From positions 1 to 48,366 of the forward strand of contig JACDSH010000058.1 in assembly GCA_013450215.1 (NCBI GenBank): a stretch of DNA of 48,366 nt. The letters run 5' to 3'. Position numbers and translations under genes: made by a program. Source of the DNA: Nitrosospira sp. (GTDB taxonomy: Bacteria; Pseudomonadota; Gammaproteobacteria; Burkholderiales; Nitrosomonadaceae). Of this stretch, positions 20,980 to 37,382 are shown piece after piece. The notes under the pieces were generated by a model. The model searched no databases. It worked only from the letters and a program-made list of their open reading frames with translations, and was not told the origin of the DNA. The first letter of the stretch is position 1; the number at the start of each line of letters is the position of its first letter.

Positions 20980-21152
20980 GTACTTCGATCTAGACAATGA
21001 GCTCTAAGTTCCCCCGGTTTGGCTGTGGTCAGGATTCCCGCCGATTTCAAAGTGAACTGATGTAGGAGACGAAAGCTGGTGAATTTCACGTGAGTTTCGT
21101 GTATTTTAACAGCTTTTCCATACCACCTCATTGGATCAAGGTGCTTTATCTC

Positions 21153-21590
21153 ATGGCTGAAATTGAGAAATCGGTTCTGGTAAGTCACTCTGCAAGCAGG
21201 ATGTTCGCACTGGTAGATGCGGTTGAGGACTATCCTAAATTCCTGCCTTGGTGCGGAGGTTCATCCGTTAATCGGCAGGATGATCGCGTTACTCATGCTA
21301 CCGTCATGATCGATTATCATCACATCAAACACAGCTTCACCACCGAGAATACCCGGAAGGTGGCGGAATTGATTGAGATGAAACTCCTGGACGGACCATT
21401 TGAACATCTGGATGGCCAGTGGCGATTCGTCTCATTGTCTGAGGATGCCTGCAAGGTGGAATTCCGTCTGCACTATACCTTCTCACATAAAATACTGGAG
21501 AAACTGGTAGGACCAGTATTCTTCATCATCGCGAATAGCTTCGTAGACGCTTTCGTCCAACGCGCGGAGCAGGTTTACGGAGAGACATGA
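21153..21590 (+). CDS. ratA: RatA-type START/COQ10-like protein, copy 1
   Basis: A SRPBCC (START-like) protein of the RatA family. E. coli RatA was described as inhibiting 70S ribosome assembly, and eukaryotic COQ10 homologues bind ubiquinone, so the true role here is open. The start at 21153 (AAGGTG upstream) gives MAEIEKSVLVSHSASRMFALVDAVEDYPKFLPWC, the standard N-terminus. The frame is also open upstream to 21090. Other landmarks are HSFTTEN, GPFEHLDGQWRF and KVEFRLHYTFSHKILEKLVGPVF. Its stop overlaps the rnfH start (ATGA). A close paralogue is encoded at 29793-30227. Confidence 0.93.
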   Translation: MAEIEKSVLVSHSASRMFALVDAVEDYPKFLPWCGGSSVNRQDDRVTHATVMIDYHHIKHSFTTENTRKVAELIEMKLLDGPFEHLDGQWRFVSLSEDACKVEFRLHYTFSHKILEKLVGPVFFIIANSFVDAFVQRAEQVYGET

Positions 21591-26491: not shown

Positions 26492-27097
26492 CTAGTTCCC
26501 AGTATTTTCGACATCAATCATACGCTCGGTCGAGAAGCCTAATGCCCGCCCCTTGTCCTTTAAGGAAGTCGTTATGCTCGCGTCTAGCGTTGGCGTGCGT
26601 GCCAATATCCAGAAATACTCTCGGCTCGGCCCACCCACTACAACCCAGCTGTAATCGGGTGCAAGATCAATCACCCAGTAGTCACCCCATACGAACGGGA
26701 GAAATGACAGCCATGCCGGGGCAAAACGCACCCGCAATTGACCTGGATTCTGCGGGTTAGGTACTACGGCAACGCCCCGGGCTGAGATTACACCTTCTGC
26801 AGTACGGCAAGCATTCAAAACACTAACAGTTTGATCGGGCTGCAGCGTGTAAGTAGCCGAAACATCACCGAGACAACGCCTCTCAAACCACATGGGTAGG
26901 CGGGAGATTTCGTACCACTTCCCGGCATAGCTCTCTAAGTTGAGCGTCGGAACTGTGGGTAGCGCCGTTGACTGTGCAAGGACTGGTGTTACTGAACCTG
27001 CCACCCAACTAGTGCAGAGTATGAGGCTGATCGCTAGATACTTACGGAAGATGCGTTGACGATAATGCCGGGCTGTCATGCCGATTTTTAGCTTCAT
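26492..27097 (-). CDS. blc: bacterial lipocalin (Blc-like)
   Basis: Lipocalins bind small hydrophobic molecules; bacterial Blc binds lysophospholipids and fatty acids at the envelope. After a basic N-terminus and a hydrophobic signal (LAISLILCTSWVAGSVTPVLAQ) comes LNLESYAGKWYEISRLPMWFERRCLGDVSATYTLQPDQTVSVLNAC, the lipocalin G-x-W signature. Later come GDYWVIDLAPDYSWVVVGGPSREYFWILARTP (second and third structurally conserved regions). There is no lipobox, so it is periplasmic rather than lipidated. Three ATGs are possible (27121, 27097, 27079), none with a clear ribosome site. It is downstream of the LOV gene in the same direction, about 175 bases away. Confidence 0.9.
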   Translation of the reverse strand: MKLKIGMTARHYRQRIFRKYLAISLILCTSWVAGSVTPVLAQSTALPTVPTLNLESYAGKWYEISRLPMWFERRCLGDVSATYTLQPDQTVSVLNACRTAEGVISARGVAVVPNPQNPGQLRVRFAPAWLSFLPFVWGDYWVIDLAPDYSWVVVGGPSREYFWILARTPTLDASITTSLKDKGRALGFSTERMIDVENTGN

Positions 27098-27271
27098 AAT
27101 GGGATGATAGCAAGGCTCCATTGACGGAACTGGGTCGGTTAAAATCAGAACGGAAATTAAATAGCCAAAACAAACGCCAAGACGTTGCTAAGACATAAGT
27201 AAGTTATGCACACCCGTCAAACCTGTAAACTCAGCAGCCCATCAGAAGGCTTTAGAACAAGAAATTAGCAG

Positions 27272-27727
27272 CTATTTATTTTCCAATTTATTTAGTCGAC
27301 TAGTTAGCAACTTTATTTCCTCTGCTGCGCGGATTTGAGTAGTAATATCGAACTGCACACCCAAATAATAGAGCAGGTTCCCATGTGGATCAAACAAGGG
27401 AGTCATCTCCAAATGGTTATAAAATAACTCCCCACTCTTCTTATAATTCCTCAAGGTTACTCCAATTTCCTGTTTATTTTTAATCGCCTCCCGTAACTTC
27501 CCAACCTCCGGTTGGTCGCGATCGGTACCTTGTAAGAAACGGCAATTTCTACCCACAGTCTCTTCATTCGAGTAACCGGTCACGGTTTCAAATGCCTTAT
27601 TTGCGTAGACAAGAGGCATATCCTCAACATCGGGGTCAGACAAGGTGACGCCATTGACGCAAGAGTCCAATACTTTTGTTAGGATTTGAGGAATCAGTCC
27701 ACTGTCTTTTTCAGGTATAAACATCAC
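27272..27727 (-). CDS. short LOV-domain blue-light receptor
   Basis: A 151-residue protein made of one LOV (light-oxygen-voltage) PAS domain with short helical ends. The photoactive motif GRNCRFLQG holds Cys62, which forms the light-induced flavin adduct. The expected flavin contacts are present: N61, R63, Q66, R70, N94 (LRNYKKSG), N104 (FYNHL) and the switch glutamine Q125 (LGVQFDIT). There is no kinase, GGDEF or HTH output domain. A C-terminal helix (RAAEEIKLLTSRLNKLE) could form a dimeric coiled coil. It resembles the stand-alone LOV proteins of Pseudomonas putida. It lies between the SRPBCC and lipocalin genes, all leftward. The output partner is unknown. Confidence 0.93.
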   Translation of the reverse strand: MMFIPEKDSGLIPQILTKVLDSCVNGVTLSDPDVEDMPLVYANKAFETVTGYSNEETVGRNCRFLQGTDRDQPEVGKLREAIKNKQEIGVTLRNYKKSGELFYNHLEMTPLFDPHGNLLYYLGVQFDITTQIRAAEEIKLLTSRLNKLENK

Positions 27728-27789
27728 TTCCCTCCAAGAATAAAATTTATAAAAATATTAAAATACTATTGTAAAACAAGAAATCAGTA

Positions 27790-28281
27790 TCATTTTGATA
27801 CTGACCCTACCTCTTCTTCGACTAGCTTTTTGATATTACTCACTGTTTTCTCTGTGCCATCTTGTATGGCCATACGAACTAACTTCTCGAAGGGCTTCAT
27901 ATACATTTCTAGCTTGAGCAATTCAAAGGTAAATGTAATTCGACTCGAATTCTCTTGGGTGGCGGGCTCTAATGCATAGTCGCACCGAAAGGGGCTAGTG
28001 GTACCTTCAAAGCAGATACGCCTCCCCTCAGTGAAGGCTGTCACTTGAAATGTAGATTCTGACCGATTTCCTTGGTCCACCCGAACCTGTTTACATAACG
28101 TACCGATCTTGACTGGAGCGCTACTCAACATCTTTAAATCTTTAACCTCCGGTGACCATCTTGGATAATTCTTGAAGAAATTAGCACCCACAAAATTAAA
28201 AACTATATCGCATTTGCAATTTATGACTGTATTAGCCTTACCAGTAACTTGGACATCCTTAAGTAAGCCGAACATAAGCAC
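27790..28281 (-). CDS. SRPBCC (START-like) ligand-binding protein
   Basis: The 163-residue protein reads like a polyketide cyclase/START fold: an N-terminal strand (VTGKANTVINCKCDIVFNFVG), then NYPRWSPEVKDLKMLSSAPVKIGTLCKQVR, paired strands with STFQVTAFTEGRRICFEGTTSPF, and a long C-terminal helix (KPFEKLVRMAIQDGTEKTVSNIKKLVEEE). The fold encloses a hydrophobic cavity for lipids or aromatic ligands. No ligand can be assigned. The gene starts 19 bases after the FAD oxidoreductase stop, so the two are almost certainly co-transcribed, and the LOV gene follows after 62 bases. Confidence 0.82.
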   Translation of the reverse strand: MLMFGLLKDVQVTGKANTVINCKCDIVFNFVGANFFKNYPRWSPEVKDLKMLSSAPVKIGTLCKQVRVDQGNRSESTFQVTAFTEGRRICFEGTTSPFRCDYALEPATQENSSRITFTFELLKLEMYMKPFEKLVRMAIQDGTEKTVSNIKKLVEEEVGSVSK

Positions 28282-28300
28282 CTCCCCCAGGTAAATCTAT

Positions 28301-29458
28301 TTAGATCAGATAGGTATCTGTTCCAGTGAGCAATAAATCATACTGTATTTCTACCACTTCCTTAATCGCCAGTGCAGGCATACCGGTAACGACATTCCCC
28401 TCTACGCCTAACCAACCAACCGCATCTGAGGGTCCAAGATTAACAACATATCCCAGGTCGCGATGCAGATAAGGCTCAAGAACTTTTATTCGGCCAGAGT
28501 GGCGCAAGATATTACGCGCACATAACTTCCCTTTCCTAACAGCAGACTGAGCTGACATAACATTTGAACCAAATTTATTGTAACTTGAACAATCTCCCGC
28601 AGCAAAGATATTTTCAAGCGGAAATTCATTCGCCAATACCTGCCCGAAGGTATTGGTGAGGAAGATATTTTCCGGTTTTTTACCCAAGAACATGAATGAC
28701 ATTGCCGATGGCAAATCAAATCGGCCCCTACCACCCCTCTCTTCTAGAAAAATTCTCCCATCCACCTGTCCGTGGTAGAAGGTATTGGGATGAAAGTCGA
28801 TACCCTGATCACTCATACGTGATTGGGTATAACTAGAGAATCCCTCGGGAAATTGTTTGAGTACTCGGTCTCCACCATCGATCAATCTTAGCTTGTTCTT
28901 AAGTTTCTTTCGACGTAAAAAAAGTGCAATTTCAAATAGGAATTGAACTCCTGTGGCCCCCCCCCCGATTATAGAGATAGGCTGATCCTGAGCAGAACTT
29001 GCATCTAGACGGCTACTTAATAAGTCTGCTCCACTCAGAGTTATGAAGTCTTGAAGAGTCACGACATCCGGTGTCACATCCATCTTCTTACTGGCAGCAC
29101 CAGATGCAATCAGAAGGTAATCGAACTCAATGATCTGGTCATCTAGCCTGATAGACTTATCATTTTGCCATTGATACAGGGTATTCTCTTTTAGGGTGAA
29201 CTCGGTACAGACATGACGGCAACCGAACCGTTCCTCAAGAATGCCGAAGGGTATCAGTACATCTTCCAGAGGATAGCGGAAGGTCTCATGTAGATGCGTA
29301 ATCTTGACGTGCTGAGATCGTGGATCAATTAGGGTAATGACCGCCTCAGGCATATACCGCAGAATAGAGGTCATGGCAGCGATCCCGGCGTATCCGCCCC
29401 CTAAGATCGCAATCTTGAGTTGCCTATTTTCAGGTATATAAAAAGGGAGGAAAGCCAT
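28301..29458 (-). CDS. FAD-dependent NAD(P)H oxidoreductase, NDH-2-like
   Basis: A two-dinucleotide-binding flavoprotein of the pyridine nucleotide-disulfide fold. It has the FAD site KIAILGGGYAGIAAM near residue 15, the second Rossmann site ISIIGGGATGVQFLFEIALFL near 165, and the FAD-closing motif ENIFAAGDCSSYN near 295. The redox CxxxxC pair of disulfide reductases is absent, so it resembles type 2 NADH dehydrogenases and ferredoxin- or quinone-type reductases. No membrane helix is evident in its 385 residues. It leads the SRPBCC, LOV, lipocalin run. The second Rossmann glycines are encoded by a run of ten G, a slippage-prone tract. The acceptor is unknown; quinone is a fair guess. Confidence 0.86.
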   Translation of the reverse strand: MAFLPFYIPENRQLKIAILGGGYAGIAAMTSILRYMPEAVITLIDPRSQHVKITHLHETFRYPLEDVLIPFGILEERFGCRHVCTEFTLKENTLYQWQNDKSIRLDDQIIEFDYLLIASGAASKKMDVTPDVVTLQDFITLSGADLLSSRLDASSAQDQPISIIGGGATGVQFLFEIALFLRRKKLKNKLRLIDGGDRVLKQFPEGFSSYTQSRMSDQGIDFHPNTFYHGQVDGRIFLEERGGRGRFDLPSAMSFMFLGKKPENIFLTNTFGQVLANEFPLENIFAAGDCSSYNKFGSNVMSAQSAVRKGKLCARNILRHSGRIKVLEPYLHRDLGYVVNLGPSDAVGWLGVEGNVVTGMPALAIKEVVEIQYDLLLTGTDTYLI

Positions 29459-29792
29459 GACCCCTCATTAAATTTATCAATCGCTTCTACAGTACCATAT
29501 ATGAGCCTATCATATTACTATCTGATAAAAGCCACATAATTTTTATAGCCTTCTTTCTGGCTAGTCAAGTTCCATGGACTCTCTATACTCAATACTCCCC
29601 TCTTGCATAATGCCCACAGATTAAGGCGAATGGAACTAGAGCGCCGCCCTATACTCAGGCTAAGTGTTGACCGACAAATAAAATTTTTTTAACGGAACTT
29701 TTTTACAAAAATAGATAGTTGCAAATTATAAAAATTAAGTTCATCGTAATGGGATTTTTGATCTTTATTATCGTTCAAAGGTGATTTATTCG
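29459..29792. other. divergent intergenic control region
   Basis: This AT-rich gap separates the leftward flavoprotein-LOV run from the rightward second ratA-like gene and must hold both promoters. I see several AT-rich -10-like hexamers but no pair I would defend. The stretch from 29690 to 29790 is especially A/T-rich and ends with AAAGGTGA, the ribosome site of the right-hand gene. Confidence 0.55.
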
Positions 29793-30227
29793 ATGCCAAT
29801 AATTGAAAAATCAGTCCAGATAAATCATTCAGCAAGCCAGATGTTCGCTTTGATAGATGGGGTGGAGAATTACCCAAAGTTCCTACCATGGTGCGCTGGA
29901 TCTTCCGTGATAGCGTGTGATGAGCATATCAATCATGCGACGATTGTTATCAGCTACCTCCATCTCAAGCATAGCTTTACCACTGAGAATATTCGGGACG
30001 TTCCAAAATCAATCAAGATGAGATTACTTAGCGGCCCATTTAAACATCTCGACGGCAAATGGAGCTTCACCCCCCTTACAGACAAAAGCTGCAAGGTTGA
30101 ATTCTTTCTGCATTATACATTTTCAAATATGCTACTAGATAAGCTGGTCGGCCCGCTATTCTTCAGCATCGTTAATAACTTCGTCGGAGCATTTACCAAG
30201 CGTGCAAAAGAAGTTTATGGAGATTGA
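29793..30227 (+). CDS. RatA-like START/COQ10-family protein, copy 2
   Basis: This 144-residue protein aligns without gaps along nearly its whole length to the RatA encoded at 21153-21590, at more than half identical positions: IEKSV...HSAS.MFAL.D.VE.YPKFLPWC, HSFTTEN, GPF.HLDG.W.F, KVEF.LHYTFS, KLVGP.FF. The start at 29793 follows AAAGGTGA at good spacing. It has no rnfH partner and is more AT-rich than copy 1. It is transcribed away from the flavoprotein-LOV run. The family can bind quinones or lipids, so a role with the neighbouring flavoprotein is possible. Whether it has RatA activity cannot be told from sequence. Confidence 0.88.
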   Translation: MPIIEKSVQINHSASQMFALIDGVENYPKFLPWCAGSSVIACDEHINHATIVISYLHLKHSFTTENIRDVPKSIKMRLLSGPFKHLDGKWSFTPLTDKSCKVEFFLHYTFSNMLLDKLVGPLFFSIVNNFVGAFTKRAKEVYGD

Positions 30228-36359: not shown

Positions 36360-37382
36360 TTATTTATAGGCGATCGCTGCACTACATGGACCGACTAGAT
36401 GTACGACCTCATACCTCTTAAATCCAGCCTCTGTGCACCACTCCCAAAAATCAGCACCGGTAAAATCAAATGCGTCACCAAACTCGATGAGCATATGAAG
36501 GGACATCATGAGTCCAAAAGCGTTAGTACGTCGATCATCATCGATAATATTCTCTATCACGATAAATACACCATTCTCAGAAAGGGCCTCATAGGCTGAA
36601 CGTATAAGGTGCTTCTTTTTTTCTAGATTCCAGTCGTGAAGAATATTTCCCATCGTAATAATGTCTGCCCTCGGTAGGGGTTCCTTAAGAAAATCTCCCG
36701 ATACAATATTGATTCGGTCAGATAGTCCTGCCTTTGCAATCCATTTTCTTGCGATTGGCTCAACAATGGGCAAGTCGAAGCTCGTGCACTCCAAATGCTT
36801 ATGCTGCTCTGCCACAATGCTTGATAGTAATCCGGTGGCACCGCCTACGTCACAAAGTGTTTTGTAACCTGAAAAATCAAACTTTTGTGCAAATGCTTCG
36901 AAATTTCCAAAAGAGATTCCTCTCATTGCACCCATGAACTGCTCGAGTCTTGATATGTCTTCATAGAGGACTTCGAACATAGACTTCTGGCTGTGTTTGA
37001 TTTCGTTCTGGGGCTTTCCTGTTTTAAGTGCGATCCCCAGGTCATTCCAGAACCGGTATAAACGGTCGTTAGCCATTTCAAGGATGCCGCCGATATAAGA
37101 GGGTTTATTCTTATCAAGAAAATGAGCAGTCTCATCGGTATTAGAATAAAGCGCTGTAGGGCCATTCCCATCACGATTGAGAAAACCGAGTGCGACCAAG
37201 GTATCAAAAAAATCCCAGATCCCCCGAGGATGCAGATCGAGCATCTTACCAAGAGACTCTCCTGTCATAGACTGACTCCCGAGCTTGGTGAAGAGTTCTA
37301 ATTCGACCGCTGTGAGAAGGACCTTTGACTGCCAAAAGCCAAAACCGGTTTGGAAAATTCGTGATGAGTCTAGACTAGCCAT
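36360..37382 (-). CDS. SAM-dependent O-methyltransferase (family 2)
   Basis: A 340-residue methyltransferase with the two-domain plan of plant and bacterial O-methyltransferases. An N-terminal winged-helix dimerisation part (WQSKVLLTAVELELFTKLG...LDLHPRGIWDFFDTLVALGFLNRDG, to about residue 90) precedes the SAM domain. That domain has LCDVGGATGLLSSIVAEQH as motif I, DFLKEPLPRADIITMGNILHDWN with the likely catalytic His in LHDW, and VFIVIENIIDD. The family methylates hydroxyl groups of small molecules, from carotenoid precursors to polyketides. No biosynthetic cluster accompanies it. It is preceded by a long leader with a tRNA terminator. Confidence 0.88.
   Translation of the reverse strand: MASLDSSRIFQTGFGFWQSKVLLTAVELELFTKLGSQSMTGESLGKMLDLHPRGIWDFFDTLVALGFLNRDGNGPTALYSNTDETAHFLDKNKPSYIGGILEMANDRLYRFWNDLGIALKTGKPQNEIKHSQKSMFEVLYEDISRLEQFMGAMRGISFGNFEAFAQKFDFSGYKTLCDVGGATGLLSSIVAEQHKHLECTSFDLPIVEPIARKWIAKAGLSDRINIVSGDFLKEPLPRADIITMGNILHDWNLEKKKHLIRSAYEALSENGVFIVIENIIDDDRRTNAFGLMMSLHMLIEFGDAFDFTGADFWEWCTEAGFKRYEVVHLVGPCSAAIAYK

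Follow-up and report, generated by a model that had tools for sequence, protein, structure and literature searches.

The window analysed here is a stretch of 48,366 nucleotides from the small genome of a Nitrosomonadaceae bacterium (1.6 Mb, 99.8% complete), which also carries amoA (ammonia monooxygenase). The five open reading frames that a sequence-only reading had joined into one light/redox module are all present in it, with family matches by Pfam and NCBIfam, and they are arranged as that reading described, i.e., as one leftward run of four genes with a fifth diverging from it. In the direction of transcription, the run on the reverse strand begins with an NDH-2-like FAD oxidoreductase of 385 amino acids (28301..29458; Pyr_redox_2), continues after 19 bases with an SRPBCC helix-grip protein of 161-163 amino acids (27790..28281; Polyketide_cyc2) and after another 62 bases with a short LOV protein of 151 amino acids (27272..27727), which stands alone, matching PAS/LOV families only and having no fused output domain. 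It ends with a Blc-type lipocalin (26492..27121; Lipocalin_2), separated from the LOV gene by 150 bases if counted to its longest ORF start, and by about 175-200 if counted to inner starts. The divergent gene, on the forward strand, is RatA-like (29781..30227; RatA-type Polyketide_cyc), and the intergenic region between it and the run measures 322 bases to a GTG start or 334 to an ATG start. Comparison with a sister genome reveals purifying selection throughout the run, with dN/dS of 0.07 for LOV, 0.10 for FAD, 0.14 for SRPBCC and 0.22 for the lipocalin. A promoter scan returned about as many sites as are found in shuffled sequences. A hairpin with a T-rich tail (27781-27807) sits at the stop of the SRPBCC gene, ahead of LOV; its interpretation as a conserved attenuator was abandoned, since it is absent from the relatives checked.

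The sequence-only reading had offered to give way should no related genome conserve this neighbourhood, and the neighbourhood is decisively conserved. Among 101 Nitrosomonadaceae genomes with a completeness of 90% or more, SRPBCC is present in 90, LOV in 79 and FAD in 99, and the SRPBCC gene lies directly upstream of LOV, on the same strand, in 81 of 82 LOV loci, the lone exception sitting at a contig start. The gap between the two ranges from 39 to 219 bases (median 72), and in 59 of the 81 loci the FAD gene precedes the pair at a distance of 24-101 bases. A second scan, of one genome per species over some 85,000 species, gave 279 SRPBCC loci, of which 80 named ones were kept; LOV follows SRPBCC directly in every one of these 80 and FAD lies ahead in 70. 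Nearly all named relatives of the cassette belong to the Nitrosomonadaceae, the ammonia-oxidising betaproteobacteria. Both the SRPBCC-LOV and the FAD-SRPBCC-LOV arrangements are far beyond chance, and the core of the module is two genes (LOV and its SRPBCC partner), usually three, with FAD as the third member in most Nitrosomonadaceae, and not five. Some ammonia oxidisers have no LOV, and in one genome (G378, L229:837-1200) the LOV gene is broken whilst the FAD-SRPBCC ahead of it is intact, so loss of LOV need not entail loss of the genes next to it.

What recurs in relatives from the proposed five-gene module is thus flavoprotein-SRPBCC-LOV, whereas the RatA-like gene drops out and the lipocalin is only loosely tied to the rest. 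The former lies beside the cassette at no other Nitrosomonadaceae locus fetched, and is judged to be outside the module. It is the second of two ratA-like copies in the window, about 60% identical, the other one (21090-21590) adjoining smpB; its match to the RatA model (E 2e-38) reaches 131.6 bits against a cut-off of 258, and the smpB-side copy likewise remains below cut-off. The lipocalin adjoins the cassette in the lineage of the window, sister genome included, and Blc-type lipocalins lie near six SRPBCC-LOV loci that have no FAD (L048, L073, L076, L089, L097 and L123). In four cases the distance is about 210 bases or less, with two of these lipocalins on the opposite strand, and in the remaining two it is 1.1 kb and 2.1 kb. 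No lipocalin was found in 20 background loci (L153-L172). To this limited extent its proposed membership is borne out, and as an occasional neighbour it is probably accessory.

The flavoprotein is near-universal in the family, and 20 of the 99 genomes that encode it have no LOV, so its link to the pair is weaker than the bond between SRPBCC and LOV. In addition, gluQ is the usual upstream neighbour of FAD-SRPBCC-LOV, and among 10 sampled loci that lack the pair FAD adjoins gluQ in 8, so that its linkage may be partly positional. Taken to its end, this would mean that an ancestral insertion placed SRPBCC-LOV behind gluQ-FAD and that FAD has no functional tie to it, an explanation that the occurrence of gluQ-FAD without the pair favors, as does the location of the FAD gene elsewhere in Nitrosospira genomes, apart from the pair. 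FAD-SRPBCC-LOV is, however, kept together in the lineage of the window, despite gluQ not adjoining the cassette there, and it is also intact without gluQ in a locus from another family (L118), and we consider position by itself a very improbable explanation. As to the protein, NDH-2 structures are its best matches, with a near full-length profile match and two dinucleotide-binding regions, and its structure model is of moderate quality (pLDDT 72). In common with NDH-2 and FSP1/AIFM2 it has the AQ of the quinone motif, and also a C-terminal GxVxSLGxxDAVG-like region; the full AQxAxQ of NDH-2, however, is AQxxxR here (AQSAVR in the window), the last Q being replaced by R in 14 of 14 aligned sequences. 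We call it NDH-2-like only, and its enzymatic activity is a prediction from sequence.

The SRPBCC-LOV pair also extends beyond the Nitrosomonadaceae, to four other families, one of them in another class, and to a MAG labelled Methylotetracoccus (L118, with FAD; L185, in tandem; L186, L188, L189, L227 and L228). In a genome of the same phylum and another class (G937), LOV comes after SRPBCC twice. SRPBCC matches are rare overall, being present in 6 of 300 genomes sampled from the order, all inside the Nitrosomonadaceae, and in 9 of 369 sampled from the class. Where a close SRPBCC relative exists outside the family, LOV usually comes after it, and SRPBCC without a nearby LOV was seen in L187 and L190-L193. 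In a class-wide search for LOV, every intact LOV above 200 bits sits behind SRPBCC, and for 26 other LOV loci, which score below 190 bits, the fetched flanks (mostly 1.5 kb) contain no SRPBCC. A functional partnership is the best explanation for a pair that persists through such changes of neighbourhood and host. The SRPBCC of L118 branches outside the Nitrosomonadaceae groups in the tree; Methylotetracoccus is the label of the MAG that holds this locus, and a binning error could be behind it. The tandem locus, SRPBCC-LOV-SRPBCC-LOV (L185:6013-8580), comes from a genome that also has a PF02461 (AMO/pMMO) gene. A strict tie of the pair to AMO/pMMO was rejected, since among the seven non-family genomes with an SRPBCC match PF02461 is found in one only (G647). 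A search of plasmids returned distant Rhodococcus SRPBCC proteins only.

The best NCBIfam match of the LOV protein is the N-terminus of YtvA, under the whole-protein cut-off of that model, and among solved structures short LOV proteins and the LOV domain of YtvA are closest to it. The adduct cysteine C62 and the FMN-contact residues R63, Q66, N94, N104 and Q125 are invariant in the alignment, and the cysteine is present in 114 of 114 loci. The same genome encodes another stand-alone PAS protein, of 155 amino acids, in which this cysteine is missing (GKTPRILQG; L002, contig C17). Given that the flavins of LOV proteins are redox-active and that ammonia oxidisers are often found in dark habitats, the LOV protein might be a flavin redox or oxygen sensor that informs SRPBCC and the flavoprotein, with light playing only an incidental part, and both the adjoining flavoprotein gene and the many members from dark habitats (groundwater, soil and wastewater, according to record titles) are in line with this. 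Against it, a pure redox sensor would have no need of the adduct cysteine that all loci retain, and the other stand-alone PAS of the genome does without it; we hold the redox-sensor explanation to be unlikely, albeit deserving of some weight.

The SRPBCC protein matches Polyketide_cyc2 above cut-off, and its structure model has the helix-grip fold (pLDDT 93.5, pTM 0.87). Foldseek relates this model to PYL receptors, Bet v 1-type carriers and an aromatase/cyclase, with E-values down to 5e-9, and a sequence search of the PDB gave no relative, its best E-value being 0.46. A second SRPBCC paralog, without LOV, adjoins an O-methyltransferase at all 10 loci that were sampled, and SRPBCC thus also has roles apart from LOV; in L153-L162 this paralog and a BchU/CrtF-like O-methyltransferase form a pair conserved in Nitrosomonas and Nitrosospira. 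Several Nitrosospira have the order SDR-SRPBCC-LOV-methyltransferase or SRPBCC-LOV-methyltransferase, and in the SRPBCC tree the methyltransferase-linked paralogs group with the Nitrosospira methyltransferase loci (98/91 support), the LOV-linked forms being among the outer branches. The window has its own BchU/CrtF-like O-methyltransferase (36360-37382), which was rejected as an ortholog of the SRPBCC-linked one, with about 25% identity versus 60-67% among members. These associations invite the explanation that SRPBCC handles a methylated, quinone-like or polyketide-like compound, either as an enzyme or as a carrier, and that LOV does no more than tune its activity by light. The flavoprotein would work in the same small-molecule pathway, as would the O-methyltransferase and SDR at other loci. 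The constant methyltransferase neighbour of the paralogs, the Nitrosospira gene order starting with SDR and the aromatase/cyclase among the helix-grip relatives all favor this explanation. Its substrate, however, is purely hypothetical, and near the cassette of the window there is no ortholog of the SRPBCC-linked methyltransferase, which leaves it distinctly unlikely.

We find it rather probable that the two-gene core is a blue-light module, in which SRPBCC would be the trans-acting partner of the short LOV protein, with a link, in ammonia oxidisers, to a flavoprotein that reacts with quinone. The LOV protein would bind FMN and form the cysteine adduct under blue light and, having no output domain, would signal in trans via the SRPBCC protein encoded directly upstream. 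The latter probably holds a lipid or a quinone-like molecule as its hydrophobic ligand, and lit LOV would change its ligand or binding state. With the pair encoded behind the NDH-2-like flavoprotein in most Nitrosomonadaceae, the likely output there would be to control how electrons flow from NAD(P)H to quinone (or along a related path), or else how ligand is supplied to the flavoprotein, whose role as a target in ammonia oxidisers is plausible. Such output would protect or adjust cells under blue light. Blue light inhibits ammonia oxidation and its oxidisers (PMC9797979; PMC9239080), and this gives a plausible selective reason for the module. More tentatively, and with somewhat less than even confidence, a general two-component light switch can be envisaged, where a PYL/START-like ligand-binder serves as dedicated output partner of short LOV proteins in at least two proteobacterial classes and where, in ammonia-oxidising bacteria, its connection to a quinone-reactive flavoprotein lets blue light retune electron flow.

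How short LOV proteins without an output domain signal is largely an open question. A partner kept next to the LOV gene across several families would provide a directly testable second answer to it, and the ammonia oxidisers, blue-light-inhibited organisms that shape nitrogen cycling in lit waters, gain a candidate dedicated light sensor. In the open-access literature we found no study of LOV in Nitrosomonadaceae and no SRPBCC-LOV pair, and this work points to an undescribed light-response module in ammonia oxidisers. PYL receptors, Bet v 1/PR-10, START and COQ10/RatA proteins have the fold in common with SRPBCC, including the long C-terminal helix, and a dedicated pairing of these helix-grip families with LOV is not described in the literature searched. 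Among the genes that blue light controls in the LitR/PplR light-induced set of Pseudomonas are those of an FAD-dependent oxidoreductase and an SDR (PMC9758184), which resembles the oxidoreductase at the cassette and the SDR beside some Nitrosospira SRPBCC-LOV pairs. Nevertheless, that system differs in its partner logic and in that no LitR, photolyase or ufaM adjoins the cassette, where the adjacent genes scanned gave no match to the MerR family (LitR). The short LOV proteins of Pseudomonas (PpSB1-LOV, PpSB2-LOV and PmSB-LOV) likewise stand alone, with about 150 amino acids, no output domain and an adjacent partner gene, and LitR-type regulators were reported as the first partner class of short LOV proteins (PMC9758184). 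PmSB-LOV of Pseudomonas mendocina acts light-dependently through the LitR-class partner PmlR2 encoded by its neighbour (PMC9758184), a precedent for an adjacently encoded partner that we count in favor of the SRPBCC partnership. The partner of PmSB-LOV, however, is a DNA-binding regulator, whereas the constant neighbour here is an SRPBCC helix-grip protein.
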